DNA of 64,000 nucleotides from an uncultured SAR116 cluster alpha proteobacterium. Its GTDB lineage: Bacteria > Pseudomonadota > Alphaproteobacteria > Puniceispirillales > Puniceispirillaceae. Each line of letters opens with the position of its first letter. The first letter of the stretch is position 1. Under the pieces are notes generated by a model. It was not told where the DNA came from. It saw nothing but the letters and a program-made list of their open reading frames with translations, and made no database searches. A program made the translations under genes and the position numbers. Location of the stretch: assembly GCA_902596655.1 (NCBI GenBank), contig CACJUX010000004.1:1-64000 (forward strand). The letters run 5' to 3'. This document shows, one piece after another, positions 1,614 through 26,174 of this stretch.

Positions 1614-1616
1614 ACT

Positions 1617-2360
1617 CTATCCAAGTCTTTCTAAAGTTGCATCCATCCATTTCCAAAAACCCTTTGGAGTTTGAGCTTCGGCCATGGCAACCAGGGACAT
1701 AGGTGTTTCATCTTTTTGCCGGCGTGGACGAGGAGGAAGGTATTTGTTAACAGGCTTTGTTTTTTGCTCAGGCAAAAGGTCGAAACCGTCCCTGGCAGAT
1801 ACAAGTTTGCTAACATCAGAGTTAGGGTCACCCAAGTCACCAAAATGCCGAGCATTAGTAGGACAGGTCCTAACACAGGCAGGAATCTGATCCTCTTTAG
1901 GCAAATTATCGTTATAAATTCTATCTACACAGAGCGTGCATTTCTTCATAACACCTTCGACTGGGTCCATTTCTCTTGCTCCATATGGGCACGACCAAGC
2001 ACAAAGGCCACATCCAATACACCAATCCTCATTTACCAAAACTATTCCATCTTCCGCGCGCTTAAACGATGCTCCAGTTGGACACGCAGTTACACAAGGA
2101 GCGTCTTCGCAATGCAAACAAGATTTTGGGAAATGAACAGTTTTGGCGTCTTCTGCGTCACCTGCTTCAAAGGCATGAACTCTATTAAGCCATGCTCCAT
2201 TTGGATTTGCCCCATACGCGTTGTCATCACTGAGCGGCGCGCCGTAGCCAGAAGTATTCCATTCTTTGCAATTAACAACACAGGCCTGGCATCCAACACA
2301 CAAGTCCAAGTCTATAACTAATCCAAGTTTTATAGCAGAAGGCTCTGGAAGGCTTGTCAT
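1617..2360 (-). CDS. soeB: Four-cluster ferredoxin subunit of sulfite dehydrogenase (SoeB-like)
   Basis: A 247-residue electron-transfer subunit with four cysteine groups of the DmsB/PsrB type: CVGCQACVVNC, CLHCEDAPCVTACP, CIGCGLCAWSCP, and CTLC followed by CVRTCP. These bind four [4Fe-4S] clusters carrying electrons from the molybdenum subunit to the membrane anchor. The start ATG overlaps the soeA stop (ATGA), so the two are translationally coupled. There is no signal peptide. The C-terminal tail (about residues 205-247) is unrelated to cluster binding. Confidence 0.88.
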   Translation of the reverse strand: MTSLPEPSAIKLGLVIDLDLCVGCQACVVNCKEWNTSGYGAPLSDDNAYGANPNGAWLNRVHAFEAGDAEDAKTVHFPKSCLHCEDAPCVTACPTGASFKRAEDGIVLVNEDWCIGCGLCAWSCPYGAREMDPVEGVMKKCTLCVDRIYNDNLPKEDQIPACVRTCPTNARHFGDLGDPNSDVSKLVSARDGFDLLPEQKTKPVNKYLPPRPRRQKDETPMSLVAMAEAQTPKGFWKWMDATLERLG

Positions 2361-5245
2361 ACTTTAGGCTCACTCTTGACTTTGGTTTTATTTCCAGTCC
2401 ATTGAAGCCCGTACCTCAAGGTTTTACTCGGGGTTGGCACCACACCGTTCATTCTTGGCAAGGCTGGGAATTGCGGAAACGCTTGAGTTGGTTCATTTGC
2501 GTCAGCTTTTCTTATGTTTACCTTCAGATCAAACCACGCTGCTTGACCAGTTATTGGGTCTGAGTTTGCCCATCTCTGGCCGTCACCCTTTGCGGGTAAC
2601 AGTTCGTGAATTAAGTGATTTAACAAGAAACCTTTTTTAGCCTCAGGAGCATCGTCTTCCAGCTGCCAGGCACCTTTTCTCTTACCAATAGCATTCCAAG
2701 TCCAAATGGTTTTTTCATTAAGACCCGCCATTATAGCCACTGGTACACGAATTTTACCGTGGTGCGACGTTACCCAAATCCAGTCCCCATCAGACAGGTT
2801 ATGTTCTTTTGCCAATTTTTGAGGAACAAACATGGGATTGTGCCCATGGATTTGTCTAAGCCAAGGGTTTTGCGAGCCCCATGAATGATACATTGCCATA
2901 GGGCGTTGGGTCAGAGCATGTAATGGAAATTCTTCCTCATCAACAGACGCCCCTTCAAATGGCGCATACCAAGTAGGTAAAGGAGTAAAACAACTTTTAA
3001 CTCTATCGCGCAGATGCTCAGGTGGCTGAATATTTCCATGACCTTCAGCTGCAAGGTGAAATTTCTGCAGAGGTTCGCTGTAAATCTGAAAGGCATAGGG
3101 TTGAGGGCTATCATAGATACCCATATCTACCGCAAACTCCTGATACGCTATGTTGGCCATTTTATAATATCGCGCTTCATGCGGTATGGATTTATGCCAA
3201 AATGCACCGTTGGCTATATATGCATCAAGTTGTCCTGGGTTAGGTTCACCGCGTCCAGATTGGGCCCCATTACCCCTAAATCCTGCTAGTGGCCCGATAC
3301 CTGGCTTGCGCTGGTGATTGACAATATAATCTCCATAATCTGAGTATCTGGCTCCCCCTTCCCCGTCGACCATGCCTGGAAGACCGAGCCTCGCCCCCAA
3401 ATCTAGCAATACCGATTGAAATCCTCTCACATCACGGTCTGGTTCAAAAACTGGCCACCTAATGGCGTCACAAACCGCATCTGCCTCGCAGATTGGTCTG
3501 TCCAATAAAGAAATAGCGTCATGGCGTTCTAAATAAGTGGTATCTGGCAAGATGAGATCTGCATAGGCGACCATTTCCGACGAATAGGCATCTGAATAGA
3601 TAATTTTTGGGATTTTATATTCACCAGTCTCAGGATCAGTTTCGGTGAGCATCTCCATCACACCGCGAGTGTTCATCGATGAGTTCCAAGCCATATTCGC
3701 CATATACATAAACAACACATCAACAGGATAGGGATCCCCAGCTACAGCATTGGAAATAACCATATGCATCAAACCATGAGCTGACATAGGTGCATCCCAG
3801 CTATATGCTTTATCAATCCTTTGTGGGCTTCCATCGGAACCAAGAAGAAGATCTTCTGGTCCCAGAACATATCCTAAAGGAGCCCCAGGTAATGGCTTGC
3901 CCGCGCTGACCTGATCTGGTCTACCTGCAGGCTTTGGGTGCGCTTCCGGCGGTTTTGGATAAGGGGGTTTAAACCGCCATCCTCCTGGCACCTCCACAGA
4001 TCCTAACATCAATTGTAAAACATGGAGAGCTCTACATGTCTGGAAGCCATTTGAATGAGCTGATATTCCTCTCATAGAATGCATGGCAACTGGACGGCCT
4101 ATCATCGTTTCATGCCGTTCTCCCTTCCAGTCCGTCCAAGGCTGTTTAATAACAATTTCTTTGGCAAAGGCAGCCTCGGCAAGATCTGCTGCAAATTGCC
4201 GAATTCTATCTGCCGCAATTCCAGTAGTGTTAGCTACTGCCTCCGGCGCATATGCATCGTCCATGTAAGTTTCAGTTAGAATCGTAAATGCAGGAGTAGC
4301 GATGCCACCACCGTCCAAAGGTATTTGGCCATTCATTGCAGAGCTGACATTCTTTGATTTATACGAAACGGCTTGACCTGTTGAGCGATCGAGAACCTGT
4401 GGTTCACCCGCAGCGTCACGCAAAAATAGACCGTCATTCGCAGCACCAGGGTTTCGGATGACTAGCCATGGAGAATTTGTATACCTACGGAGATAATCCA
4501 CATCAATATTACCAGAAAGCATCAATTCTCGGATTAGCGCAATTATCAACAAACCATCAGTTCCCGGTGTGATCCCATACCAATCATCAGAGATCGCTGC
4601 ATAGCCAGTTTGGACTGGGTTGACTGAAACAACCTTTTTTCCGCGGCTCTTGACTTTGCCAAGTCCGATTTTGATTGGGTTAGAGTCGTGGTCCTCTGCC
4701 ACACCAAATAAAACAAACATTTCCGTGAGTTCCCAATCAGGGGCGCCAAACTCCCAAAAAGCTCCACCAACAGTATAAATTCCACCGGCCGCCATATTGA
4801 CAGAGCAAAAGCCACCATGCGCCGCAAAATTTGGAGTCCCAAACTGCTGCGCCCACCAACTAGTCAGCGCTTGTGATTGATCCCGGCCAGTAAAAAAAGC
4901 TAGTTTTTTTGGGTCTGTGTTCCTGACCGGCTCTAACCAATTGGTTGCAGTGGATAACGCCTCTTCCCAACTCACTGGTTCAAATTGTCCAGACCCACGC
5001 GGACCAACTCTGCGCATTGGTGATTTGAGGCGTGCCGGCGAATAGTGCTGCATAATGCCAGCGGACCCTTTAGCGCACAACACCCCCTTATTTATTGGAT
5101 GATCCCGATTTCCTTCGATGTACCGAATTTTATCATCACGGATGTGTACATTGATCCCACATCTACACGCGCACATGTAGCATGTCGTCTTCTTGATCTC
5201 GTCATTGACTTTTGGACTGTATTCAATTTGAGGCTCAGAGGACAT
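2357..5245 (-). CDS. soeA: Molybdopterin catalytic subunit of cytoplasmic sulfite dehydrogenase (SoeA-like)
   Basis: A 962-residue molybdopterin-guanine-dinucleotide oxidoreductase of the DMSO reductase superfamily. Near the N-terminus it has a [4Fe-4S] motif (C22-x2-C25-x3-C29, and C57 in KGVLCAKG). The likely Mo-ligand cysteine lies in the HGGFCSVN segment. The C-terminal MGD-binding part includes PLHALTQRPM and HGHNPMF. There is no Tat leader, so the enzyme should be cytoplasmic. That is the feature separating SoeA (sulfite:quinone oxidoreductase) from periplasmic DmsA, PsrA or TtrA relatives. Neighbouring phosphotransacetylase, TauE-type exporters and sulfonate genes support sulfite as substrate. 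Thiosulfate, tetrathionate or polysulfide chemistry cannot be excluded from sequence alone. Confidence 0.82.
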   Translation of the reverse strand: MSSEPQIEYSPKVNDEIKKTTCYMCACRCGINVHIRDDKIRYIEGNRDHPINKGVLCAKGSAGIMQHYSPARLKSPMRRVGPRGSGQFEPVSWEEALSTATNWLEPVRNTDPKKLAFFTGRDQSQALTSWWAQQFGTPNFAAHGGFCSVNMAAGGIYTVGGAFWEFGAPDWELTEMFVLFGVAEDHDSNPIKIGLGKVKSRGKKVVSVNPVQTGYAAISDDWYGITPGTDGLLIIALIRELMLSGNIDVDYLRRYTNSPWLVIRNPGAANDGLFLRDAAGEPQVLDRSTGQAVSYKSKNVSSAMNGQIPLDGGGIATPAFTILTETYMDDAYAPEAVANTTGIAADRIRQFAADLAEAAFAKEIVIKQPWTDWKGERHETMIGRPVAMHSMRGISAHSNGFQTCRALHVLQLMLGSVEVPGGWRFKPPYPKPPEAHPKPAGRPDQVSAGKPLPGAPLGYVLGPEDLLLGSDGSPQRIDKAYSWDAPMSAHGLMHMVISNAVAGDPYPVDVLFMYMANMAWNSSMNTRGVMEMLTETDPETGEYKIPKIIYSDAYSSEMVAYADLILPDTTYLERHDAISLLDRPICEADAVCDAIRWPVFEPDRDVRGFQSVLLDLGARLGLPGMVDGEGGARYSDYGDYIVNHQRKPGIGPLAGFRGNGAQSGRGEPNPGQLDAYIANGAFWHKSIPHEARYYKMANIAYQEFAVDMGIYDSPQPYAFQIYSEPLQKFHLAAEGHGNIQPPEHLRDRVKSCFTPLPTWYAPFEGASVDEEEFPLHALTQRPMAMYHSWGSQNPWLRQIHGHNPMFVPQKLAKEHNLSDGDWIWVTSHHGKIRVPVAIMAGLNEKTIWTWNAIGKRKGAWQLEDDAPEAKKGFLLNHLIHELLPAKGDGQRWANSDPITGQAAWFDLKVNIRKADANEPTQAFPQFPALPRMNGVVPTPSKTLRYGLQWTGNKTKVKSEPKV

Positions 5246-12257: not shown

Positions 12258-13100
12258 TTATTTTAGTACAGCGAAGCTCTTCATAGCTTCGTCATGCAAT
12301 AGCTCCATAGCCTCTTTTTTATATTCAAACGCTTGTTCGGTCGTTAGCATCTTATAGTCTCGGGGTCTTGGTAACTTAATCTTCATAACTGTTTGCACTG
12401 TCGTTGGCTTATTTGAGAGAACGACTAAATTATCGGCAAGAAAAATAGCTTCGTCGATTTCTGATGTTACAAAGATGTTAGTTTTTTTGTTTTCCTCGAA
12501 CAAATCGAGAAAAAACTCTTGCATTAAACTCCTAGACATTGCGTCTAGCCCCCGAAAGGGTTCATCCATGATCATGACCGTTGGTTCATTTATCAAGGCC
12601 CGAGCAAGTTCCGCTCTTCGTTGCATGCCACCCGACAATTGAATTGGATATTTGTGAATAAATTCTCCTAAACCGACTTTGACGAGAAGCGCCTCAGCCT
12701 CATCTTTCAAAGCCTGGCCAGACTTGTCGCCACGCATTTTAGGGCCAAAAACAACATTCTCGTAAGTGGTCTGCCAGGGAATCAACGCTGTCTCTTGAAA
12801 AACCACCATGCGGTCTTTAGCTGGCCCTGTTATAGGCCTGTTATCAATCAGCACCTCCCCGCTATCTGGCGTTTCAAAGCCAGCCATGATATTAACTAAA
12901 GTGGACTTTCCGCAACCTGAAGGACCAACAATAACTGTGAGTTCACCGGCTGGGAATTCGATAGAGACATCTTTAAGCACGTCATCAGAAAGCCAGGCCT
13001 CTCCGTATGATTTTGATACATTACGTAACGTCACGCTCGCTGCATCATTTGGCACAACCTTTTTAGCGGGTTTCGATTTTAAGGTCTGCTTCACAGCCAT
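12258..13100 (-). CDS. ABC importer ATPase B, nitrate/sulfonate/taurine type
   Basis: A 280-residue ATPase of the SsuB/TauB/NrtD class: Walker A GPSGCGKSTLVN, signature LSGGMQRRAELARAL, Walker B VMIMDEPFRGLD. The expected switch position reads TSEIDEA where TauB-like proteins have THxxxEA, so the conserved His is replaced by Ser. It is the last gene of the five-gene importer operon. A gap of about 60 bases separates it from the preceding permease. It would energise import together with the second ATPase encoded upstream. The missing switch His suggests an asymmetric ATPase pair in which this subunit is weakly active. Confidence 0.9.
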   Translation of the reverse strand: MAVKQTLKSKPAKKVVPNDAASVTLRNVSKSYGEAWLSDDVLKDVSIEFPAGELTVIVGPSGCGKSTLVNIMAGFETPDSGEVLIDNRPITGPAKDRMVVFQETALIPWQTTYENVVFGPKMRGDKSGQALKDEAEALLVKVGLGEFIHKYPIQLSGGMQRRAELARALINEPTVMIMDEPFRGLDAMSRSLMQEFFLDLFEENKKTNIFVTSEIDEAIFLADNLVVLSNKPTTVQTVMKIKLPRPRDYKMLTTEQAFEYKKEAMELLHDEAMKSFAVLK

Positions 13101-13162
13101 TGCATTCTCCTAACACAGCACTTTATTTTTTCGCAGTCTATTTATGGCCAGTTATTTTTACT

Positions 13163-13987
13163 TCAGAAAAGGCGACGCCACGGCATCATAAAGTAACCAA
13201 GCTTCCTTATTGCGCTTGATGATAAATAGCCGGCTATACCAATCGAAATCATACCTACCACGATTTGTTCGAGAGATCCGCCCATGTAGGAATTCCATAT
13301 GAAGAAACCAAGTCCTCCGCCACCTTGGGTACCGCCCCCGGAGATCATTTCTGCGGCAAGCACAACCTCCCACGTAATACCCATACCCACAGCTGCTCCG
13401 GTAAAAATGGACGGGAGAGTGCCTGGTAAGACAATCTTCCAAAACAGGTCGAATTGCGACGCGCCCATTGACTGAGCTGCCCTGAGATAACTGATGTCAA
13501 TAGACCTTGCACCCCCAAGAACATTGATCACGATTGTGAAAAACGCTCCTAGGAAAGTGACAAATGCGATTGACATCTCATTAGTTGGCCAAAAAATAAG
13601 AGATGCTGGCACCCAAGCCAGCGGCGGTATCGGCCGCAAAATTTCGAATGGTGGGAAAAACAAGCCTCTAAAATACCTATTAACTGCCAACAATAGCCCA
13701 AAAGGTATTCCAATCAACATTGCAACCAAAAAGCCAGTGAGCACCCGACTAAAACTGGAAACCCAACTCTGCCAATAGCCGATTTTTGGTATCACCTCCA
13801 AAAACGCGGCAAACACATCTGCTGGTGGTGGGACTAAACCAATACCGATGATATCAACACCAAACCAATCATCAAACAAAGCTCCTACATGCCAAATCAC
13901 GAGAAAAATTAGGATCGCACTAACACCCCTTTTCAAGGTTACCTGTCCCATGAGTTTAGCAAAAAAACTTTTTTTCGTTGAAGTCAT
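13163..13987 (-). CDS. ABC importer permease B, nitrate/sulfonate/taurine type
   Basis: A 274-residue binding-protein-dependent permease of the SsuC/TauC/NrtB class. It shows six hydrophobic helices and the coupling-helix region AAQSMGASQFDLFWKIVLPGTLPSIFTG, typical of this family. The second permease of the operon carries a matching segment, so the two probably form a heterodimeric channel. It lies between the two ATPase genes on the minus strand. Confidence 0.92.
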   Translation of the reverse strand: MTSTKKSFFAKLMGQVTLKRGVSAILIFLVIWHVGALFDDWFGVDIIGIGLVPPPADVFAAFLEVIPKIGYWQSWVSSFSRVLTGFLVAMLIGIPFGLLLAVNRYFRGLFFPPFEILRPIPPLAWVPASLIFWPTNEMSIAFVTFLGAFFTIVINVLGGARSIDISYLRAAQSMGASQFDLFWKIVLPGTLPSIFTGAAVGMGITWEVVLAAEMISGGGTQGGGGLGFFIWNSYMGGSLEQIVVGMISIGIAGYLSSSAIRKLGYFMMPWRRLF

Positions 13988-14037
13988 CGTTTCCTCGAAC
14001 AGTTTACCAATCTATGCAAAGTTTTTGTCAGCCTTAA

Positions 14038-14889
14038 TCAAGCCATTTCTCTTTCGCCAGCCTGAAATGCCTTCACAGCCTCTTCATGAACGGCATCACT
14101 CACTTCCTCCAGCAACTTTCTGAAAGCTTCTGACGATTGAGTCTCATACGATCTAGGCCTTGGAATTTTCACTTCCACGGTTTTCTTAAGCTGGCATGGT
14201 CTCGTTGTGACAATATGCACCTTATCACCCAGGAAGATCGCCTCCTCCAAATCATGCGTAATGAAAAAGATCGTAACGCCGGTGCGGTCATAAGTCTCAA
14301 GTAAAGACTCATGCATAATTTGTTTTGTTAGAGCGTCCATAGCCCGGTAGGGCTCATCAAGTAGCAAAACTTTAGGGTCGTTTATAAGGGCCCTAACAAT
14401 CTCTGCACGCCTGGCCATGCCAGATGAGACTTCCCCCGGATATTTTGTGAGGAAATCTCCCAACCCTGCCTCGGCAAGCATCGTACCAGCTTTATCCATT
14501 GCTTCGCGCGATCCCAAAACTTTTTGGACTATTGGGCCGTACGCCACATTTTCTTGCAAAGTTTTCCATGGGAACAAAGCGCCATGCTGGAAAACCACCA
14601 TTCTATCTGCGCCCTGGTCAGCTAGTGGTTTGCTAGGGCCACACAAAAGCTCCCCGTCGAGGTGAATGCTTCCCTCAGTGACAGAGTGAAAACCAGCAAT
14701 TGCATTCAAAAGTGTTGTTTTGCCGCAACCAGATGGCCCGACAATCATACAAACTTCACTGCCAGCGATTTCCATAGAGCAATTGTCAACTGCCATGACA
14801 TTTACTCCCTCAGGGTCGTACACCTTCGTGACATTTTTGATGCTCAGTGCGCCTAAGCCTGAGTTTCTATTTTTTTCTTTTGTCATCAA
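14038..14889 (-). CDS. ABC importer ATPase A, nitrate/sulfonate/taurine type
   Basis: A 283-residue ATPase: Walker A GPSGCGKTTLLN, Walker B VLLLDEPYRAMD, switch His in FFITHDLEEA. The signature reads EVSSGMARRAEIVRAL, with Ser where the second residue of the usual SGG is expected (SSGM). Compared with the partner ATPase at 12.3-13.1 kb, this one keeps the switch His and the other keeps the canonical signature. That fits a heterodimer with one consensus site. It starts 15 bases after the upstream permease stop. Confidence 0.92.
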   Translation of the reverse strand: MMTKEKNRNSGLGALSIKNVTKVYDPEGVNVMAVDNCSMEIAGSEVCMIVGPSGCGKTTLLNAIAGFHSVTEGSIHLDGELLCGPSKPLADQGADRMVVFQHGALFPWKTLQENVAYGPIVQKVLGSREAMDKAGTMLAEAGLGDFLTKYPGEVSSGMARRAEIVRALINDPKVLLLDEPYRAMDALTKQIMHESLLETYDRTGVTIFFITHDLEEAIFLGDKVHIVTTRPCQLKKTVEVKIPRPRSYETQSSEAFRKLLEEVSDAVHEEAVKAFQAGEREMA

Positions 14890-14904
14890 ATTTTCCCCAC
14901 ATCC

Positions 14905-15792
14905 CTATCGACCTTGTTGGCTAAGCTCTTTGACATGCCAAGCCATCAATTTATTTCCAAGCATACGGACCAGTGCTGAGCTGAAATAGCCTATGAAGCC
15001 AAGAGTAATCATCGCAATTACCATTGGTACGGTGACGTTGTTCATGTAGGCGTCCACAATCAAGTAACCCAAGCCAAGATCACCGGACACCATCTCTGCG
15101 GCTACAAGTGAAAACCAAGCCACGCCGATTGAAATTTGAAGTCCAGTAAAAATAAAGGGAAGCGCACCTGGGACTACAACATTCTTAAAAACATCCCACC
15201 TACTCGAACCAAGGCATCCAGCCGCTCGAAAATACTCCTCATCAATTGAGTCAACGCCCAACATGGCATTGAGAGTTGTTACAAAAAATGATGCCAAAGT
15301 TGCGAGGAAGAGCACTGGCCCTTCAAAACCCGGCAACAGCAAAATCGAAAGTGGCACCCAAGCAAGAATTGGTATTGGCCTTAGAACTTCGATTATTGGA
15401 AAAATATAATCTCTTATTGTTCTAGACCACCCCATGAAGAGGCCCAGCGGCACCCCAAATGCCGTGGCAATTCCAAACGCGATAAGAATACGTCGGCAAC
15501 TTACGATAATATGATCGTAATATTCCTGAGTAAATATTGATATTCCCTGAAATGGATCAACTGCAAACCAATCTTTTGATATTGCAACTGGTCCCGGAAG
15601 CTTATCAAATCTCCATATTTGCAAACCCTCGCAAAGTACCCAATAGGCAAATAGCCACAAACCAATACCCATTAATGTAAGGTAAGGGTCTAATTGACCC
15701 AGGTACTTCTTTGTTTTGTAGACAAACAAATTAAATCCCTGAGGTGCAACCATTTTGCCGTTTTGATTTGTAGTTGAGGAGTTTGCACTCAT
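14905..15792 (-). CDS. ABC importer permease A, nitrate/sulfonate/taurine type
   Basis: A ~295-residue permease with the family signature AAGCLGSSRWDVFKNVVVPGALPFIFTG and six helices. Compared with typical SsuC it has an extra N-terminal hydrophobic segment (LTLMGIGLWLFAYWVLCEG). I place the start at ATG 15792 (MSANSST), which has GGGGAT six bases upstream, instead of the longer frame opening at 15828. It follows the binding-protein gene after an intercistronic hairpin. Confidence 0.9.
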   Translation of the reverse strand: MSANSSTTNQNGKMVAPQGFNLFVYKTKKYLGQLDPYLTLMGIGLWLFAYWVLCEGLQIWRFDKLPGPVAISKDWFAVDPFQGISIFTQEYYDHIIVSCRRILIAFGIATAFGVPLGLFMGWSRTIRDYIFPIIEVLRPIPILAWVPLSILLLPGFEGPVLFLATLASFFVTTLNAMLGVDSIDEEYFRAAGCLGSSRWDVFKNVVVPGALPFIFTGLQISIGVAWFSLVAAEMVSGDLGLGYLIVDAYMNNVTVPMVIAMITLGFIGYFSSALVRMLGNKLMAWHVKELSQQGR

Positions 15793-15869
15793 GTCGATCC
15801 CCACACTTAATACGATGCCCAATGCCATCGAAAAGACTGTCGTTAACGATAAATTAAATTAATAGAGGA

Positions 15870-15899
15870 GTTGGGACTCAGATTAGTCTGAGCCCCAAC
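15870..15899 (-). other. Intercistronic hairpin after the binding-protein gene
   Basis: Arms at 15870-15882 and 15887-15899 pair with a single G:U-type mismatch around a TTAG/CTAA loop. On the transcribed (minus) strand it lies directly after the binding-protein stop and is not followed by a clean U run. It is better explained as an mRNA-stabilising or partial-attenuation element that raises binding protein over permease than as a full terminator. Confidence 0.5.
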
Positions 15900-15907
15900 C
15901 GATGTTT

Positions 15908-17011
15908 TTATTTTGCGACGATGCGCCCGACCGGCGTGGTAAGACCACGCTTCTCTAACACACGCTCAGCAAACTGACCCATCACGCCTTCGGGACGAAT
16001 TTGTGGCGCAGCAGCAGGCTTCTTCTTCAGGCTGTAAAGAAAAGCAGTTGCATCACGAAGTAGAGATTTTGCGTCATCACTAATCACAAAGTCTAGTTGA
16101 AGCTTTGTTGTGCCTGACATTGGTGAGTCATACAGGCTAGCTTTCAACACGGACCTATCTATCTTCTCAGTCTGAGCCTCAGCCATAGCTGCTATCGCAT
16201 CAGCATTTGCTGGATCAGCAACAAACTCTTGAGCATCCAGCTCAGCTTCCAACCAGCCCATTACAGCATCCGGCCGCTGCGAGATAAGGTCATTTAACAT
16301 CACCATGAATGCCCCGTCTTGCGCACCGAAATCCTCTCCAGATGCAGCTCGGCGAGCAATCCCAGCTGAGACCATTTTAGATGCGGTAGGCTCCCAGATT
16401 GCCGCAGCGTCCAGTTTACCTGCACGGAAGTTTGTCGTGATGACCTCAATATTCTGGTTGAGGTACTTAGCGGGTTTGATGCCAGCTTTTTTGAACGCAA
16501 GCTGTGCAAACCTGTCGGTACAAGCACCATGCGGCGCTGAAGTAACTTTGCCATCCATCCACTTGACAGCATCAACGCCATTTGCAAATTGCGGCGCATC
16601 ATTTCTTACCAAAAAGATGTTACACTGCTGCTTTGACGTTCCAAGTGCTGCAACAATCCTTATGTCTGTGCCGCCCCTTTCAGGAAGATATTTAAATGTC
16701 GAAGCGATGGCTGGCATGTCGCCCATGTATCCAATGTGCTGCTTTTCACCAGCCATGGCGTTTACAATTACCGAACCCTGAAGCCCGACCTGAAACTCAG
16801 CTGTTGACCCCGCTGGCAAATGGTTTTTCCAAAAAGATTTGCCATTGTTTACCACGCCCGTCCAAGACTCAGTGTAATAAGGCTGGTAACCAATCACCAA
16901 GTTAACGGCCTCCCCAGGTTTCCCAAAATCTACGCCAGCAGACGCAGACAAAGGTGCCATCGCGACAGCAGCTGCTATCCCAAGGCTTTTAAGTTTTTTC
17001 ATATTTGGCAT
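15908..17011 (-). CDS. Periplasmic substrate-binding protein, sulfonate/nitrate (NMT1/SsuA-like) family
   Basis: A 367-residue exported binding protein. The signal peptide is visible (MKKLKSLGIAAAVAMAPLSASA, cleavage near residue 25). It is followed by an NMT1/SsuA-type two-lobed fold with VNLVIGYQPYYTESWTGVV and, later, GKLDAAAIWEPTA, the family's signature near the ligand cleft. It is first in a minus-strand importer operon and divergent from the oxygenase genes. A strong GGAGGAG lies just before the ATG. By position it plays the part of MsmE, the binding protein of the methanesulfonate importer; I cannot assign the ligand from sequence. Unlike SsuA it has a long C-terminal tail rich in Ala/Pro. 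Confidence 0.9.
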   Translation of the reverse strand: MPNMKKLKSLGIAAAVAMAPLSASAGVDFGKPGEAVNLVIGYQPYYTESWTGVVNNGKSFWKNHLPAGSTAEFQVGLQGSVIVNAMAGEKQHIGYMGDMPAIASTFKYLPERGGTDIRIVAALGTSKQQCNIFLVRNDAPQFANGVDAVKWMDGKVTSAPHGACTDRFAQLAFKKAGIKPAKYLNQNIEVITTNFRAGKLDAAAIWEPTASKMVSAGIARRAASGEDFGAQDGAFMVMLNDLISQRPDAVMGWLEAELDAQEFVADPANADAIAAMAEAQTEKIDRSVLKASLYDSPMSGTTKLQLDFVISDDAKSLLRDATAFLYSLKKKPAAAPQIRPEGVMGQFAERVLEKRGLTTPVGRIVAK

Positions 17012-17399: not shown

Positions 17400-19790
17400 G
17401 TGATGGGACAAAGTGTAACAACCAACAGGCAGAACGCAAACGAAAGCCCCTTTAATGATAATTCTAACGAAACGTTAAAGCGCGGGAAAGAGGCGTTTTA
17501 CAAGGAACAGCAGAACATTTTCAAAAACGTATGGGTACCCGTATGTCATGAGTCAGAGCTTCTAGACCCATACGATTTTCGAACAAGCAGTATTGGTAAT
17601 GACAACATTATCATCTGCAGAGCACCCGACGGGAAAGTCAATGCTTTATTAAACGTTTGCCCACACCGTGGGATGTTGATTGAACGTCGTCCTCAAGGCA
17701 GTTTCCTTGAAGGCCAAGCATCCGGAAACCCGAAAAGAATCACCTGCATGTTTCATGCGTGGCAGTTTGATATGAGAGGCAACTGCGTTTACGTTGCGCG
17801 CGAAAAAGAAGGTTACCAAGATAGGTTTTGTAAAGATGATGCAGGACTCAGACGATTAAGGTGCTCAGTTGGCTTTGGAGGTTTTGTATGGGTCAATATG
17901 AGTGATCAGCCAGTCGCTTCACTGGAGTATTGGATTGGAGAAGCCCTCGCACCAATAGAGAAGCAAATTAGCTCCTCCCGCTTGGAAGTGGTGCATTATC
18001 ACAAGGAAATGATACAAACAGGATACAAAGACGAAATTTTGAATGGGCTAGGACGTACCGTAGGACTGTTTAATAATTTGTTCTTTCCTTTTGGGCACTG
18101 CGCCTCTCACAGCGCGGACGAAAAAATTGGTTCAAGTGGCGAAAATAAGTTTCCCGCTCCTAGTTCAACACAGTCGATCAGGGTGAATTTGTTTCCAGGT
18201 TACGTGTTCCACTTAGACGGACCCACTCTTAATGTTTCTACCATCACACCTGTGTCGGAAAACCAAGTCATGGTAGAACATAGAGGGTTGGCACCAACGA
18301 ATGATAGTGAACAGGATCGCCTTTCACGTTCTAAGCATTACAACAGCATTTTCGGCCCATTTCGGTCTCCAAAAAGCGAAAGTTCGACCCCCAACGGCAA
18401 GCCAGAGAGCAAAAATCCAGAGTTGGCCAAGCATTACAATGAGGAATGGTCACGATGGATGGACGAACACTATAAAGGGGGATCCGATTTGTCCGACCGT
18501 CTCGTTGCGCAGGGTCAGAGAGCCAATACCGATTTGGAGTCTGACCTTGCCGGACCGAAAGTGGTTGTGGTTGGAGCCAGCCATGCCGGTATTGCGTTTG
18601 CGGACAAACTTAGGAAAAACAATTTTACCGGGCCTATCGCGATTTTTGACAGACAGGTCGGTGGTCCTATGGAAAGGCCGCCATTATCGAAAGGCTTTCT
18701 TCTTGGCGGTGGGGAGACCGTAGAGGCTAAATCGCTGCTTAGACAAAAAAAATGGTACAAAAACAACAAGGTACGTCTCAAAACGCAATCCATAGTACAC
18801 TCTGTTGACACAACACAAAAAACTATAACTGTTAACAATGGAGTGATTGTCAACTATGACAAACTTGTGATTGCCAGCGGAGCAAAACCTAGAGAATTAC
18901 CTGACACGGTTGGCGTTGCGAATGCGTTTACTCTAAGACAGCCTTCCGATGCCAATGCAATCCGCCAAGCAGCAAACAATGCCGACTCAGTGGTGATCAT
19001 TGGTGGAGGATACATTGGGTTAGAAGTGGCTGCCTCGCTAAGAAAAAAAGGGTTGGTGGTCACAGTGATTGAGGCCGCTGAGAGGATTCTAGCGAGGGTT
19101 GCAAGCAAGCCCTTGGCAGAGCATTTCCAAAAATTGCATGAAAATCAAGGGGTCAAAATTTTCACTGGGATTGGAGTAGATAAAATTGACCATGAAGATG
19201 GGATTTTTACTGGAGTCGTTCTATCTGATGGAAACGAAATCAAAGCAGACATTTTGATCACAGGCATTGGAGTTTTTCCAGATAGCAAGTTGGCAGCAGA
19301 TGCAGGGATTGAAACTCAGCGTGAAAACGGTGGAGCCATTCTTGTCGACGAGACAATGAAAACAAGCGACGAAGATGTTTACGCAATTGGTGATGTTGCT
19401 ATCCGGCGTGATCAAGACTTGGCAATCGAGTCAGTGCACAATGCCCAAGAAACGGCCTCAATAGCTGCTGCTGCAATTACCAACACTTCATTACCAGTTA
19501 TACAAACACCCTGGTTTTGGTCTGACCAATACGACACAAAATTGCAATCCGTTGGTATCGTTCCAGTGGGGGACAGTGACGTTTATCAAGTTGCGCGACC
19601 AGGCAAAAAAGAGGGCGGCATTTCCTTTTGGAGCTATAGAGATGAAAATTTGATAGCTGTCGAGGTTGTCAATGACCCCGCGACTTACATGGAAGCGCGT
19701 CAATGTTTGGATACCAAGCAGTCGCCAGACCCGAAACAAATCTCAAATCGCTCTTATTCACCGATTGATAGTGGAGGAGCGCGATCCTGA
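17400..19790 (+). CDS. Msm-like Rieske alpha subunit (iron site lost) fused to FAD/NAD(P)H ferredoxin reductase
   Basis: A 796-residue fusion. Residues 1-~360 resemble the large subunit of methanesulfonate monooxygenase (MsmA). The Rieske ligands C87, H89, C116 and H119 are intact with 26 residues between the pairs, a spacing longer than the usual 17 and one I recall as characteristic of MsmA. Where the iron site should be (about 209-235) the sequence is YKDEILNGLGRTVGLF, with no D/E-x2-H-x-H. The segment that should hold the C-terminal Asp ligand is replaced by a Ser/Pro-rich linker after FGPFR (322). Residues ~386-770 are a BphA4/CamA-type reductase: FAD motif VVVVGASHAG, ERPPLSK, NAD motif VVIIGGGYIG and YAIGDVA. 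The likely role is electron input and storage for the partner alpha subunit at 21.98 kb. GTG 17400 or ATG 17403 starts, with AGGA upstream. Confidence 0.85.
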   Translation: MMGQSVTTNRQNANESPFNDNSNETLKRGKEAFYKEQQNIFKNVWVPVCHESELLDPYDFRTSSIGNDNIIICRAPDGKVNALLNVCPHRGMLIERRPQGSFLEGQASGNPKRITCMFHAWQFDMRGNCVYVAREKEGYQDRFCKDDAGLRRLRCSVGFGGFVWVNMSDQPVASLEYWIGEALAPIEKQISSSRLEVVHYHKEMIQTGYKDEILNGLGRTVGLFNNLFFPFGHCASHSADEKIGSSGENKFPAPSSTQSIRVNLFPGYVFHLDGPTLNVSTITPVSENQVMVEHRGLAPTNDSEQDRLSRSKHYNSIFGPFRSPKSESSTPNGKPESKNPELAKHYNEEWSRWMDEHYKGGSDLSDRLVAQGQRANTDLESDLAGPKVVVVGASHAGIAFADKLRKNNFTGPIAIFDRQVGGPMERPPLSKGFLLGGGETVEAKSLLRQKKWYKNNKVRLKTQSIVHSVDTTQKTITVNNGVIVNYDKLVIASGAKPRELPDTVGVANAFTLRQPSDANAIRQAANNADSVVIIGGGYIGLEVAASLRKKGLVVTVIEAAERILARVASKPLAEHFQKLHENQGVKIFTGIGVDKIDHEDGIFTGVVLSDGNEIKADILITGIGVFPDSKLAADAGIETQRENGGAILVDETMKTSDEDVYAIGDVAIRRDQDLAIESVHNAQETASIAAAAITNTSLPVIQTPWFWSDQYDTKLQSVGIVPVGDSDVYQVARPGKKEGGISFWSYRDENLIAVEVVNDPATYMEARQCLDTKQSPDPKQISNRSYSPIDSGGARS

Positions 19791-19907
19791 GGCCTTTTGC
19801 TATAGGTTAGTTGTCGTAAACACTTCATGTTACTTGCGACAACATCTAAGCCGCTTTGGGTAGGGCATTTAAAGCATTTAGAATTTTAGAGTGGGGAAAC
19901 AATCAGA

Positions 19908-20408
19908 ATGACAAACGCAAGCGCAGTGGAAATCGAAAAAAAAATCGAAAAAATTATCTATCAAACCGCATTAGCCCTAGACGATAATGACTGGAAGAGT
20001 TGGTTTGACCTCTGTGATGACGCCTTTTTTTACTCGATCACGTCCTTCAGTCCGGAAATAAACAAAAAGATGACCTACTTTAGTGGCAACAAAAAAGAGT
20101 TGGTTGGTTTGATGGACATGTTACCAAAACACAACACCGATCACTCTCCACTTCACCGACATACCTCTGTCTATACTATTGACGTTGGGGATGAAGGTCG
20201 GTCTGCTACAGCAATCAGTTCAGTAACAATTTATCAAAATATGCTTGATGGCATTAATTCTCATCTGGACTCGGGTGAGAGCAGGCTCTTTGTCATCGGC
20301 AAATACTTCGACGAGTTTACGATAGAAAATGGCAACCCAAAATTTTTGAACCGTGAAACTAAACTAGATAATAGACGTCTTGATAAGGGTTCTCATTGGC
20401 CTTTGTAA
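19908..20408 (+). CDS. Ring-hydroxylating-type oxygenase beta subunit (MsmB-like)
   Basis: A 166-residue protein of the NTF2/SnoaL-fold small-subunit family of Rieske oxygenases. Its features are the N-terminal helix with ALDDNDWKSWFDLCDD, the central HRHTSV segment, and the C-terminal FLNRETKLDNRRL that normally packs against the alpha subunit. It is structural, not catalytic, in this family. It lies 117 bases after the fusion gene; an imperfect hairpin (19810-19843, 7-base arms) sits between the two. Length and fold fit MsmB. It would hold together the alpha/alpha-prime assembly. Confidence 0.85.
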   Translation: MTNASAVEIEKKIEKIIYQTALALDDNDWKSWFDLCDDAFFYSITSFSPEINKKMTYFSGNKKELVGLMDMLPKHNTDHSPLHRHTSVYTIDVGDEGRSATAISSVTIYQNMLDGINSHLDSGESRLFVIGKYFDEFTIENGNPKFLNRETKLDNRRLDKGSHWPL

Positions 20409-20476
20409 GGATTTCTATCCTGCAAAGACTTAGCGCCTTAGTGCCGAACGCTTGTAAATTATAGAAGGTAGATTGC

Positions 20477-20881
20477 ATGGCTTGGACAAAAGTCTGTGAA
20501 AAGAGTGAAATACCCGAAGGCTCAATTAAAAAAGTGTGGGCAAGAATTGGAGGGGGCATACCCATTGCAGTCGCTCACCATAAAAACGGCTATGTCGCGA
20601 TCCCACCTGTCTGCCCACATCTAGAAGAGCCATTAGAAGATTCCGGTTTAGTCACTGGATGCAAATTAACTTGTACAAAACATCTATGGTCGTGGGACCT
20701 AGAGACCCTTGAGCTTAAAGATGAAGCGGAACTTCCGTTGAAAACTTACGATATAAAAGTCGACGGGGATAATCTAATGGTCTACGTCACTGAGCAGTTA
20801 GAATACACATTTGACGAAGATGAAGATATTGATGAAGAGACTTTCTTTCACGATGACGATGATTACGATGACATCTGGTAA
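20477..20881 (+). CDS. Rieske [2Fe-2S] ferredoxin (MsmC/T4moC-like) with acidic tail
   Basis: A 134-residue soluble Rieske ferredoxin. The ligands are C46, H48, C66 and H69, with the standard 17-residue spacing (CPH...CTKHLW). The HLWSWDLETLELKDEAELPLKTY block resembles toluene monooxygenase ferredoxin T4moC. It would carry electrons from the reductase domain of the 17.4 kb protein to the oxygenase cluster. The C-terminal 25 residues are extremely acidic (many Asp/Glu), which could guide docking. It has a good ribosome site (GAAGGTAG). It is in line with the beta-subunit gene, 68 bases apart. Confidence 0.92.
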   Translation: MAWTKVCEKSEIPEGSIKKVWARIGGGIPIAVAHHKNGYVAIPPVCPHLEEPLEDSGLVTGCKLTCTKHLWSWDLETLELKDEAELPLKTYDIKVDGDNLMVYVTEQLEYTFDEDEDIDEETFFHDDDDYDDIW

Positions 20882-20916
20882 GCAACACGATAGCTTTAAT
20901 CAATAGTGAGAAAAAA

Positions 20917-21735
20917 TTGTATTCATTGAGTAATTGGCCCAACATTGAAGTATTTCAGACGAAACAATACCGTGATGCGCGCGTTGAAGCTCATAATGCG
21001 CTTTTTTGGATGGCACGTGCTGCTCACAGTTTCGTGGAACCAATGCCAGAGAATGCTCACTTAAACTTATCATGGGAAAATGATTCTGCCGATTTCAGAA
21101 CGCAAATTTTTGGTGACAATATACAAATCGGCATAAATTTGCCTGAATTGGAGCTTTATTTTTGTGAAAAAAAAGAAAAAGTGCCGCACAGTTTTTGGCT
21201 TGATGATAGAACTCCCGCGTTTGTTGAGGCTTGGTACTTAGTAGAATTACTGCACAGGGGTATTGATCCTGAGACATTTTCAACATCCTTACCATTCGAC
21301 TCAAAAAACATGGTGATGGGAGACACGCAGGATCACAATGCGTCACTATACAAAAAAGAACTTACCGCTCTGAAAGACTGCATTCATAATACAATTCCCA
21401 TCCTTGAAGGGCTAGCGAACCGATTGCGAATTAATAACAAAATAGGAAAAGATCCACATAAAATCGTTTTGGAGCCAGAGACCTTTACCTTGATTTTGAC
21501 CAACATTCCAACCAAAAACGTTAACCAGAAAATTACTACTGGGTTAAGTGCCGGCGATAATTTACGTCAAACACCCTTTTTGTTTACCAAATCGATTGAT
21601 CAAGCTAACGGTTCAACAAACCATCTTTTGGATTACAACCCTGAATGTTTAATTACCCTCGAATCGATCATCAGCAAAGCCATCACTCAAGACGAACTAG
21701 TGAACAACTTGTGCTCGTTTTTAGTAAAGGAATGA
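20917..21735 (+). CDS. Unrecognised 272-residue protein of the oxygenase operon
   Basis: The frame opens with TTG at 20917, 35 bases after the ferredoxin stop, and closes just before a clear terminator, so it is the last gene of the oxygenase operon. I do not recognise a family. The protein is soluble with no signal peptide or membrane helix. The N-terminal half has aromatic-rich segments (HNALFWMARAAHSFVEP, SFWLDDRTPAFVEAWYLVELLH) and the C-terminal half is mixed alpha/beta. It has four cysteines that form no obvious metal motif. Its conserved location between ferredoxin and second alpha subunit suggests assembly, a regulatory subunit or substrate-handling function. Confidence 0.7.
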   Translation: MYSLSNWPNIEVFQTKQYRDARVEAHNALFWMARAAHSFVEPMPENAHLNLSWENDSADFRTQIFGDNIQIGINLPELELYFCEKKEKVPHSFWLDDRTPAFVEAWYLVELLHRGIDPETFSTSLPFDSKNMVMGDTQDHNASLYKKELTALKDCIHNTIPILEGLANRLRINNKIGKDPHKIVLEPETFTLILTNIPTKNVNQKITTGLSAGDNLRQTPFLFTKSIDQANGSTNHLLDYNPECLITLESIISKAITQDELVNNLCSFLVKE

Positions 21736-21757
21736 GCAATTAATCATCCCAGTTCCT

Positions 21758-21793
21758 AACCGATACAGATCTTGTCGGTTTTTCGTTTTTTTT
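21758..21793 (+). terminator. Terminator of the oxygenase operon
   Basis: A six-base stem AACCGA/TCGGTT (21758-21763 with 21775-21780) leads into a run of T residues interrupted once. It ends the unit containing the fusion, beta, ferredoxin and 272-residue genes. The second alpha gene must therefore have its own promoter or depend on readthrough. Confidence 0.7.
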
Positions 21794-21836
21794 TGAATCT
21801 GGGGTGTCTGTTTGGGCCGATTCCTATTATTAGCTT

Positions 21837-21851
21837 TCGGCTATTAGCCGA
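21837..21851. promoter_or_regulatory. Palindromic element upstream of second alpha gene
   Basis: A perfect 7-base inverted repeat, TCGGCTA and TAGCCGA, flanks one base. It sits 44 bases after the terminator and about 130 bases before the next start codon. It could be an activator site for the alpha-prime promoter; a short hairpin by chance is possible in this AT-rich gap. Confidence 0.35.
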
Positions 21852-21918
21852 TCAATTAGTACCCAAATTTGAGGTCTACTAAAGGAAACCATAGATTTAA
21901 AAAAGTAGTCATTTTTAC

Positions 21919-21959
21919 TTGTGAACACTCGCCTATCGTGAGATTATTATCTTAGGCGA
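21919..21959 (+). promoter_or_regulatory. Candidate promoter and operator of second alpha gene
   Basis: TTGTGA (21919) and GATTAT (21942) are 17 bases apart and match sigma-70 boxes moderately. Overlapping them is an inverted repeat with 7-base arms, TCGCCTA (21929-21935) and TAGGCGA (21953-21959). The left arm is part of the 11-base sequence shared with 17081-17091, so one regulator may control both transcription units. Confidence 0.4.
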
Positions 21960-21979
21960 AAACCGTGGAGACGTTAGTA

Positions 21980-23068
21980 ATGGCCCCCAGAAATCACAAA
22001 AATTGGTTGAAAACTCCGAAAGTAGAATACATTTCAAGCGAGTGTTATAATAATTATGGCATTTATGAACAAGAGATTGAACATATCTTCTCAAAAGTCT
22101 GGGTGCCGATGTGCCACATAAGTGAGATGGCCAATGATGGAGATTTCCGTTCTACACAGATTGCGAACAAAAATGTTGTAGCGGTAAATCGTAGCGGTGA
22201 CGTCCACGTCTTCATTTGTCCATCAATTGATCTCCCTGCTGGCAACGGCATAGACACTGAAGGACTTCACAGACTGCACAGTGAAATTAAACACGGCGGA
22301 ATGGTCTGGACCACTCTCGACGAAAATCCTAGCATGAGTGTCGAAGAATGGACATGCGGCGCTTTTGACTGCATCGCAGATGCTATTGATGCTGAAGAGA
22401 TGGAAGTGTTTCACTATCACAAAGCAGTGATCGACACGAATTACAAACTTTGGCACGATACAAACAGTGAATTTTACCATGATTTTATGCATTATTTTAA
22501 TCGAGTGTCGGGTTTTAATGATGAATACTTCGCTCGCAAAAATATACCATTTGACAATGGACACGTGAATGTTAGCAGCTTCACCGTGAACTACGAGGAA
22601 TATGATGGTTTTGAAGACCGCGGTGAGCTCTCATTTCCTAACCTCCCGCCTAACCAATGGTATATGGTGGATTTGTTTCCAGGCTATAATTTTAACTTAC
22701 GGGGCAATGCATATAGGAGCGATATTGTTACTCCGTTGGGACCGAACCGTGTTCTTATCGAATTTCGCGGTTATGGGTTGAAAAAAGATACACCGGAAGA
22801 AAGAGCGACTCGCGTGAAAGCCCATAATTCAATTTGGGGCCCTTTTGGCAGAAACCTGCATGAAGACTTGATTGGTGTTGCAGGTCAGGGCACGACTATG
22901 AGGGAAGGAACAGAAACCCGTAACATTCTTCACGGTCGACACGAAAACTCAACTATTCATGATGAAGTTGGAATGAGACACTATTACGAGGCCTGGGGAA
23001 GATTTCTTGGGTTAAACCCTATGAACCCACTTGCGGTGCTTCAAGACAACGTGCAAGCGGCAGAGTAA
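21980..23068 (+). CDS. Msm-like catalytic alpha subunit lacking the Rieske cluster
   Basis: A 362-residue protein closely resembling the MsmA catalytic domain. The iron site is intact in outline: D160-x3-E164-x2-H167-x3-H171 (NYKLWHDTNSEFYHDFMH) plus D296 in GPFGRNLHEDL as the likely third ligand. Glu replaces the usual bridging Asp, as in some carnitine-type oxygenases. The Rieske region is gone: C80 is followed by PSID, with no second His or Cys pair, and a deletion of about 47 residues relative to the 17.4 kb protein rejoins at GGMVW. It cannot receive electrons by itself and should depend on the Rieske domain of the fused protein. The start is ATG 21980 with GGAG nine bases upstream; an earlier GTG at 21965 is less likely. 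Confidence 0.85.
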   Translation: MAPRNHKNWLKTPKVEYISSECYNNYGIYEQEIEHIFSKVWVPMCHISEMANDGDFRSTQIANKNVVAVNRSGDVHVFICPSIDLPAGNGIDTEGLHRLHSEIKHGGMVWTTLDENPSMSVEEWTCGAFDCIADAIDAEEMEVFHYHKAVIDTNYKLWHDTNSEFYHDFMHYFNRVSGFNDEYFARKNIPFDNGHVNVSSFTVNYEEYDGFEDRGELSFPNLPPNQWYMVDLFPGYNFNLRGNAYRSDIVTPLGPNRVLIEFRGYGLKKDTPEERATRVKAHNSIWGPFGRNLHEDLIGVAGQGTTMREGTETRNILHGRHENSTIHDEVGMRHYYEAWGRFLGLNPMNPLAVLQDNVQAAE

Positions 23069-24378: not shown

Positions 24379-25134
24379 TTGGAAGCCTTATCCATTAACC
24401 TCCTTTCTTTTCTTGCATGTGGCTTTTTATCAGGCTTGTTGATTGGTGCAGTTGGAATTGGTGGCGTCATTTTAGTGCCTCTGCTGACTTTTGCTCTTGG
24501 TGTGGACATCTATCAGAGCATTGCGGCAAGCATTTTTGCTTTTGTAGTCTCGGGTCTTGTTGGCACTTTTAATTATGCAAAACGAAAGGTAATTTCATGG
24601 AGAGATATAAAATTTATCTGGATTGGCGCTGCACCATCAACACTGTGTGGCGCAATATTGCTTTCGCATGTAAGCAAAGAACTCTTGACCCTACTGATTG
24701 CTTTTTTAGCTCTTGGCTCTGCTATTAGGGAATTCCTTAAGCAGCAGAACAAATCTCATGATTTCACTATTGTAATTTCGAGAAGTAAGCTGATTTTCAT
24801 TGGTGCTTTCACTGGTTTTTTCTCGGCCTTAAGCGGTACTGGTGGGCCGCTAATTCTCATCCCACTAATGCTTTGGTCTTCTGTCCCAATAACTATTGCT
24901 ATTGGCCTTGCCCAGTCGATTCAATTACCTATTTCTATTTTTGCTACTATCGGAAATAGCTGGAGCGGTATTCTCAATTTTTCTATCGCATTTCCTCTGG
25001 CTACGGGCATTGCTTTCGGCACCTACTACGGAGGGGTTTGGATTAGAGGATTTTCAACTTCACAAATTAAGAAAGGCGTTGCGATTATTTTGGCTGCAAT
25101 CGGAATCGCAATGACCATCTCTGTTATAATTTAA
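24379..25134 (+). CDS. TauE/SafE-family permease 1
   Basis: A 251-residue membrane protein with about eight helices and the duplicated TauE motif: GLLIGAVGIGGVILVPLL near the N-terminus and SALSGTGGPLILIPLML mid-protein. The family exports sulfite, sulfoacetate or related anions. The start is TTG with GAGGTG upstream. It is first of a plus-strand run leading into the PanB paralogue. Context suggests sulfite or sulfonate-derived anion export. Confidence 0.88.
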   Translation: MEALSINLLSFLACGFLSGLLIGAVGIGGVILVPLLTFALGVDIYQSIAASIFAFVVSGLVGTFNYAKRKVISWRDIKFIWIGAAPSTLCGAILLSHVSKELLTLLIAFLALGSAIREFLKQQNKSHDFTIVISRSKLIFIGAFTGFFSALSGTGGPLILIPLMLWSSVPITIAIGLAQSIQLPISIFATIGNSWSGILNFSIAFPLATGIAFGTYYGGVWIRGFSTSQIKKGVAIILAAIGIAMTISVII

Positions 25135-25286: not shown

Positions 25287-26174
25287 ATGGCCGATTCAAA
25301 ACCGCGTAAAAAGGTAACATACAAAACACTGTTAAAAAAAATGGAAGCTGGAGAGCCTATTACGCAGCTTGCAGCTTATGATTATCGGACTGCCGTTGTT
25401 GCTGATCGCTTAGGCATGGATATTCTCTGCGTTTCTGACACTGGCGGCATGATCTTATTCGGGCATCAAAGTACAACCTCTGTAAGTTTTGATGAGGTTA
25501 TGATGATGTCAAAGGCAATCGACAGAGGCTCGCAATATGGCCTGAGAATGGTTGACATGCCCTATTGGAGCTTTCATGTCTCGAAAGAGCAGGCTGTGGA
25601 AAATGCTGGCCGTTTTGTTCACGAAGCCAATGCCGAGGTCATGAAATGTGAGGGCAACCGTCACCACGTTCCTGCCATCGAAGCCATTGTAAGTGCGGGC
25701 ATCCCAGTTCAAGGCCACATTGGCATAACCCCAATGCGTATGCCGCAGCTTGGAGGTTTTGTAGCCCAGGGCAAAACTGCAGATCGAGCCAAGGAATTAA
25801 TAGATGATGCAAAGGCAATGTATGACGCTGGTTGTTTCTCAATTCTCTGCGAAGTTACAACATCAGAGGTCGCGGAATATCTGGCAGAAATCTTACCTGT
25901 TCCTGTTATCAGCCTTGGCGCTGGTAATTGTGCGGATGGAGTGCATATAATCTCCTCGGATCTGTTCCACCTATGGGAAGAACACGTGCCAAAACACTCG
26001 CGTATATACACGGACCTTATTCCAATCATGGAAGACGTGATTACGCGTTACATGGACGATGTCAAAACTCGAAATTATCCCGGACCTGAAAACACGATAA
26101 AAATGCCAGAAGACGAGTTGCGAAAATTTGCAAAAGATATGAAATGGGAACGCAAGCTTGACGAGTTAGGTTAA
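25287..26174 (+). CDS. PanB paralogue: methylene-THF-dependent ketoacid hydroxymethyltransferase family
   Basis: A 295-residue protein of the ketopantoate hydroxymethyltransferase family. All expected active-site positions are kept: metal-ligand Asp residues in CVSDTGG and MVDMPY, Lys/Glu in MKCEGN, and the catalytic-type Glu in LCEVTT. It diverges from typical PanB in the loops (GHQSTTSVSFDEVMMM instead of GHDSTLPVT), has a longer C-terminus, and is not near panC. Placed between a sulfonate-type exporter and formate-THF ligase, it could move a C1 unit between methylene-THF and a keto acid other than ketoisovalerate. A simple relocated panB remains possible. A strong GGGAGGA ribosome site precedes it. 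Confidence 0.75.
   Translation: MADSKPRKKVTYKTLLKKMEAGEPITQLAAYDYRTAVVADRLGMDILCVSDTGGMILFGHQSTTSVSFDEVMMMSKAIDRGSQYGLRMVDMPYWSFHVSKEQAVENAGRFVHEANAEVMKCEGNRHHVPAIEAIVSAGIPVQGHIGITPMRMPQLGGFVAQGKTADRAKELIDDAKAMYDAGCFSILCEVTTSEVAEYLAEILPVPVISLGAGNCADGVHIISSDLFHLWEEHVPKHSRIYTDLIPIMEDVITRYMDDVKTRNYPGPENTIKMPEDELRKFAKDMKWERKLDELG

Follow-up and report, generated by a model that had tools for sequence, protein, structure and literature searches.

The window described here comprises 64,000 nucleotides from an uncultured SAR116 cluster alphaproteobacterium (contig CACJUX010000004.1, positions 1 to 64,000, of assembly GCA_902596655.1, a 2.24 Mb draft genome that is 73% complete, here G000). It probably encodes a methanesulfonate monooxygenase in which complementary loss has divided the alpha subunit between two paralogues. 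A run of five genes on the forward strand specifies, in order, a 796-residue Rieske protein joined to a reductase (17400–19790), a beta subunit, a Rieske-type ferredoxin, a 272-residue protein and a 362-residue alpha-like protein (21980–23068). The first, referred to below as the fusion, retains the ligands of the Rieske cluster and has lost those of the mononuclear iron, and the last, referred to as alpha-prime, retains the iron ligands and has no Rieske ligands. The intact single alpha subunit of other organisms is called ordinary MsmA. Electrons would pass from the Rieske cluster of the fusion to the iron of alpha-prime, neither half being functional by itself, a path that we regard as probable whether the fusion occupies a place in the oxygenase ring or docks outside it.

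The division of the two sites was followed in an alignment of 15 fusions, among them that of the window, 38 alpha-primes (18 from cells, 20 from phages) and 12 ordinary MsmA proteins, in which six ligand columns were scored and the second Rieske pair was taken from the printed motif. The motif C-x-H-x26-C-x2-H is present in 15/15 fusions, and the iron ligands E, H, H and D in 0/15. In alpha-primes the iron ligands are found in 38/38 and the Rieske ligand pair in 0/38, while all 12 ordinary MsmA proteins possess both sites. A motif scan of 80 fetched phage copies of alpha-prime gave the iron site in 80/80 and any Rieske motif in 0/80. MsmA is recognized by CxH-x26-CxxH together with E/H/H/D; the fusion contains the first and alpha-prime the second, and only the pair has both. 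Such a recurrent division of ligands is far beyond chance.

In the window the Rieske ligands of the fusion are C87-x-H89-x26-C116-x2-H119 (17658–17756, + strand), and the iron site of alpha-prime is E164-x2-H167-x3-H171 (22469–22492, + strand) with D296 (22865–22867, + strand). An earlier note on this DNA, made from the sequence alone, had named the same residues and the same 26-residue spacing and proposed an obligate pair of degenerate alpha subunits. Its numbering holds for both proteins, with alpha-prime counted from the ATG at 21980, which is the start of all relatives; the reading frame itself runs from a GTG at 21965 that adds five residues.

Each half is preserved where its counterpart is broken, as judged from the conservation of individual segments. 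Pairwise ratios of nonsynonymous to synonymous substitution (dN/dS) are rough, many pairs being saturated at synonymous sites, and give a median of ~0.006 for the cluster segment of the fusions (98% identity), against ~0.48 for the segment of the former iron helix (30% identity) and 0.39 around the lost Asp (36% identity). Measured against ordinary MsmA, the identity of the fusion falls from 89% over the Rieske segment to 24% over the iron helix. Cellular alpha-primes share 98% identity in the iron helix and 90% in the core, and the helix stays at 98–99% across the whole alpha-prime set; alpha-prime and ordinary MsmA agree at 80% of positions in the iron helix and at 76% in the core. A tree of the shared scaffold places the fusion and alpha-prime on opposite sides of ordinary MsmA, each on a long branch. 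It could be argued that both genes are functionless copies on the way to becoming pseudogenes, as parts have been lost from both and ordinary MsmA is absent. The strong purifying selection on the retained sites, conserved in 15 fusions, 38 aligned alpha-primes and 80 phage copies, leads us to reject such decay as scarcely credible.

The fusion (alternative ATG start at 17403) begins with a Rieske domain (Pfam Rieske, 5.4e-16, residues 45–133) of the MsmA type. It is followed by a vestigial catalytic domain (17847–18464, + strand), from which the iron helix and the block with the C-terminal Asp have been deleted. The Asp block is missing in 15/15 fusions and the helix in 13/15. In the remaining two, G077 (IMCC1322-like) and L017, the helix persists, the ligand places reading K/Q/K and K/Q/N, as if the loss were less advanced in these copies. 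No iron site is thus found elsewhere in the protein, a finding that the earlier note had listed among those that would refute it. About 200 residues of the dead domain are kept, its core having a median dN/dS of ~0.13 and 48 invariant columns.

Residues 387–785 of the fusion form a complete ferredoxin reductase of the glutathione-reductase type, which binds flavin adenine dinucleotide (FAD) and nicotinamide adenine dinucleotide (NAD) and is encoded at 18558–19754 on the + strand. It consists of Pyr_redox_2 (5.8e-64, residues 387–686) and Reductase_C (residues 705–785), and its best PDB matches are reductases of the putidaredoxin and rubredoxin type, with E-values down to 2e-68. The earlier note had taken this protein for a plain MsmA-type alpha subunit; it described the N-terminal half alone and missed the reductase. 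The reductase is in frame with the Rieske alpha in 14/15 aligned copies, and recurrence in independent genomes rules out an artefact of assembly or reading frame. In the remaining copy, that of G091 (L180:3689-6075), there are two open reading frames of 330 and 465 residues with a 4-base overlap, which represent either a natural fission or a sequencing error.

Alpha-prime gives only a Ring_hydroxyl_A match in Pfam; no Rieske match was obtained in that search, and no Rieske ligand is present in its sequence. The AlphaFold model has a predicted local distance difference test (pLDDT) score of 83 and a predicted template modelling (pTM) score of 0.86, with pLDDT above 90 over residues 31–150. It resembles the alpha subunits of NagG, TPADO and CntA (Foldseek E-values down to 1.5e-20, TM ~0.7). 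The protein is therefore predicted to have the alpha-subunit fold, that is, a Rieske-domain scaffold and a helix-grip catalytic domain, with the cluster loops absent from its sequence.

The two halves are inherited together. Among 136 genomes of the order, alpha-prime occurs in 12 and the fusion in the same 12, as a fragment at the edge of a contig in G090 and as the two overlapping frames in G091. No genome of the 136 has only one half, and the iron half is found alone in phages. No intact MsmA was seen in the 12 pair-bearing genomes, including G000 (73% complete), G077 (100% complete, one contig) and G087, G088 and G092 (98–100%). Either finding, a lone half or a further intact MsmA, had been named in the earlier note as one that would speak against its proposal. 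One genome, G128, has an ordinary MsmA with the plant-type reductase MsmD and neither half. Within one genus (g5) the pair is patchy, being present in seven genomes and absent from other complete ones, so it appears to be gained or lost as a unit; G087 holds the complete pair twice. The fusion and alpha-prime of G087 and of G091 lie ~12 kb apart on opposite strands, from which it follows that their pairing is not merely an operon effect. The distance matrices of the two proteins are correlated (r = 0.91, 14 pairs, 0/2000 permutations), for which vertical descent alone could suffice.

Electrons from NADH are proposed to enter through the FAD domain of the fusion and to reach its Rieske cluster probably via the 134-residue Rieske ferredoxin, a step taken from three-component oxygenases with reductases of the glutathione-reductase type. 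From the Rieske cluster they would pass between subunits to the mononuclear iron of alpha-prime, which together with the beta subunit would convert methanesulfonate to formaldehyde and sulfite. In this enzyme class a bridging carboxylate serves as the link between the iron and the Rieske cluster in the neighbouring subunit (PMC12445004). The invariance of E164 in the Rieske-less alpha-prime argues that its electrons still come from the Rieske cluster of a partner, and it is the fusion that possesses a Rieske loop of the MsmA type, hence the path proposed here.

Some observations weigh against this path. The genes of the fusion and alpha-prime flank that of a complete Rieske ferredoxin, the two halves are far apart in G087 and G091, single-chain structure prediction of the fusion is poor (pTM 0.45), and its dead domain changes rapidly (mean distance 0.46), so that it may lack a conserved ring position. 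The first of these suggests that a trimer of alpha-prime and beta might be fed directly by the ferredoxin, which is 84–98% identical in most SAR116 loci, the fusion acting only as a reductase on which the Rieske domain is a passenger. A passenger would be expected to drift, whereas the cluster segment of the fusion is almost unchanged among its relatives, keeps the 26-residue loop and remains close to MsmA; moreover, ordinary msm loci possess a ferredoxin and yet retain the Rieske domain of alpha. Direct feeding therefore seems unlikely.

A cyclic trimer containing both proteins, the alpha3-type ring that the earlier note assumed, would have one productive interface only, whether 1:2 or 2:1, as that note had pointed out, while a trimer of alpha-prime with docked fusions could have three. 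The latter arrangement, an alpha-prime homotrimer with beta to which the fusion docks from outside, keeps the same electron path as the split enzyme proposed here and is a special case of it. It has a precedent in NdmC/NdmD (PMC4408171), and the rapid divergence of the catalytic domain of the fusion is consistent with it, since such drift argues against ring positions. Against it stand the constraint still acting on the dead domain and the emptied Rieske scaffold that alpha-prime retains, as if both proteins filled alpha-shaped places, and these mildly favour ring positions. Outside docking is thus a serious candidate to which we give a little less than an even chance.

Alpha-prime also occurs in viruses. 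A scan of IMG/VR found relatives on at least 600 viral contigs, which marks it as a common marine phage gene. In HMO-2011, a phage isolated on SAR116 strain IMCC1322, the gene is located between structural and packaging genes, and its product (ADW08429.1) is 70% identical to alpha-prime of the window. On several contigs the neighbours match known phage families, namely terminase, endolysin, ribonucleotide reductase and thymidylate synthase. Two loci binned as ‘Rickettsiales’ and ‘Hellea’ (L019 and L020) also look viral, L019 with ribonucleotide reductase, a nuclease and other phage-type genes. PHROGs gave no family for the phage alpha-prime. Cellular and phage alpha-primes are weakly resolved and intermixed, and the catalytic part of the HMO-2011 protein is nearest to the IMCC1322-like copy by a small margin (89.7%).

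Viral scans with the Rieske region of the fusion and with the beta subunit gave no relatives, and the phage loci examined contain no homologue of any other cluster protein, beta included. Upstream of alpha-prime, mostly adjoining it, 8/80 phage loci carry aprB (adenylylsulfate reductase beta, with scores that exceed the TIGR02060 cut-off), for example at L061:5526-6011, L063:5526-6011 and L109:5532-6008, with five further phage loci. No aprA was noticed near the phage aprB. The presence of aprB beside alpha-prime links the latter to the processing of sulfite, which methanesulfonate cleavage releases, and the two genes could form a cassette for methanesulfonate sulfur.

The phage contigs without a detected Rieske alpha or beta gene would be explained if alpha-prime had a role independent of any Rieske cluster, for instance as an iron enzyme with another reductant, and this role were the reason for phage carriage. 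The conserved synteny of alpha-prime with LysR, TauE and one-carbon (C1) genes, which holds even when 12 kb separate it from the fusion, would also fit. However, E164 is invariant, the catalytic segments are 68–80% identical to those of ordinary MsmA, the fusion always accompanies alpha-prime in cellular genomes, and the host strain of HMO-2011 is reported to have two MsmA proteins, one Rieske-bearing and one Rieske-less (PMC4433239). A Rieske-independent role is thus quite improbable. Instead, we infer that phages supply the catalytic half and depend on the host for the fusion, the beta subunit and the ferredoxin. The phage gene would then be an auxiliary metabolic gene for part of an enzyme, like phage-borne photosystem D1. 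That the complete picture is right, an obligate two-protein Rieske oxygenase in which paralogues have split the sites, the Rieske half is fused to a reductase and phages contribute, in the course of infection, only the catalytic half to drive methanesulfonate oxidation by the host, we put at about even chances.

Methanesulfonate is the presumed substrate on the grounds of the 76–80% identity in the catalytic core and of the gene context. That context includes the sulfonate transporter, sulfite exporters and C1-folate genes around the cluster, together with the phage aprB beside alpha-prime. The beta subunit (19908–20408, + strand) is MsmB-like, with SnoaL_4 and Ring_hydroxyl_B matches and 53–67% identity to the beta subunits of ordinary msm loci, and the MsmC-like ferredoxin (134 residues, 20477–20881, + strand) matches Pfam Rieske with 3.2e-11. 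The 272-residue protein (20917–21735, + strand) gave no match in a Pfam search. Its homologues are found in many msm loci, both split and ordinary (L030, L036, L042 and others), and it may represent an unnamed methanesulfonate-linked family.

Upstream of the fusion, msmEFGH-like genes of a sulfonate ABC transporter are transcribed divergently (12258–17011, - strand), including a binding protein at 15908–17011 (SsuA_fam, 1.1e-22), and the transporter has the equivalent position in other SAR116 msm loci. On the 3' side of the cluster there are a LysR regulator, TauE/SafE sulfite exporters (one at 24379–25134, + strand, Pfam 5.3e-37), a PanB-like protein and C1-folate genes. The PanB-like hydroxymethyltransferase (25287–26174) adjoins Fhs in a neighbourhood conserved across SAR116 loci and may function in C1 metabolism instead of pantothenate synthesis. 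Further away, a molybdoenzyme resembling DmsABC or SoeABC is encoded at 699–5245 on the - strand, with PhsA/DmsA-family and DmsC matches. It is a candidate sulfite or dimethyl sulfoxide oxidoreductase, and the corresponding SAR116 genes have been named dmsABC (PMC8547437) or soeABC (PMC12262181).

A split alpha subunit offers an explanation for a puzzle from 2015, in that the ‘MsmA’ without a Rieske motif in SAR116 and in abundant marine phages would be the catalytic half of a divided enzyme. If this is true, surveys of msmA by Rieske motif or by annotation alone would miscount the gene in the ocean. The pair would also provide a natural system for the study of electron transfer between subunits, with donor and acceptor on separate polypeptides that can be mutated independently. 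Should phages substitute their own protein for one subunit of a host enzyme, the flow of methanesulfonate carbon and sulfur in one of the commonest clades of the surface ocean may come under their control.

In the literature, two MsmA proteins are annotated in IMCC1322, one of them with a Rieske motif, and the MsmA of HMO-2011 and of ocean metagenomes lacks the motif (PMC4433239, 2015). These Rieske-less proteins, including the HMO-2011 ‘methanesulfonate monooxygenase’, are of the same type as alpha-prime; they have counted merely as an oddity lacking the motif, and the 2015 paper describes no complementary partner. SAR116 genome papers use msmA as an ordinary marker (PMC8547437, PMC12262181). 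The earlier note knew of no Msm enzyme built in this way, which stands as regards complementarity but not for the Rieske-less half, already in print. In the open-licence literature we found no account of the reductase fusion, of a Rieske-bearing protein that has lost its iron site, or of the complementarity.

Ordinary MsmABCD systems (Filomicrobium, Methylosulfonomonas; G128/L183) share with the split system the 26-residue Rieske spacer, the E-x2-H-x3-H...D iron site, the beta subunit, the Rieske ferredoxin and the divergent sulfonate transporter. They differ in having one intact alpha subunit and MsmD, an FAD reductase with a plant-type ferredoxin domain (L183:552-1595). No plant-type MsmD is encoded between the fusion and alpha-prime, its place being taken by the fused domain of the glutathione-reductase type. 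In another alphaproteobacterial family, G294, G164 and G468 (L177–L179) contain adjacent pairs of Msm-like alpha subunits. The second alpha keeps the iron site and is Rieske-less in G294 and G468, while in G164 it has a degenerate CxC for CxH. They differ from the SAR116 system, to which identity is ~35%, in that the first alpha of G294 and G164, where it is cleanly read, is an intact protein with a short Rieske spacer and no fusion, and the reductase of G294 is of the plant type. These pairs are apparently a separate instance in which an alpha subunit does without a Rieske cluster of its own, with intermediate states.

The closest known architecture is that of the caffeine/7-methylxanthine N7-demethylase NdmC/NdmD/NdmE of Pseudomonas putida CBB5, which PMC4408171 presents as the first report of a split in which a Rieske domain has moved onto a reductase. 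The proposal of a pair of alpha subunits in the earlier note stands as to complementary, conserved and co-inherited (12/12) halves and needs amendment as to the first of them, which is the reductase fusion. In both systems a Rieske-less oxygenase is combined with a Rieske domain on the reductase polypeptide. The Ndm reductase has flavin mononucleotide and two [2Fe-2S] clusters, whereas the domain in SAR116 is of the FAD-dependent glutathione-reductase type (Pyr_redox_2 and Reductase_C only). NdmE is similar to glutathione S-transferases (GST), and the five cluster proteins show no GST domain (the rest of the genome was not searched). The SAR116 Rieske half still contains a dead alpha catalytic domain, and its oxygenase is MsmA-like with a beta subunit, belongs to a different family and is carried by phages. 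Since the type of reductase and the oxygenase family differ, the split in SAR116 appears to have arisen independently of that in Ndm.

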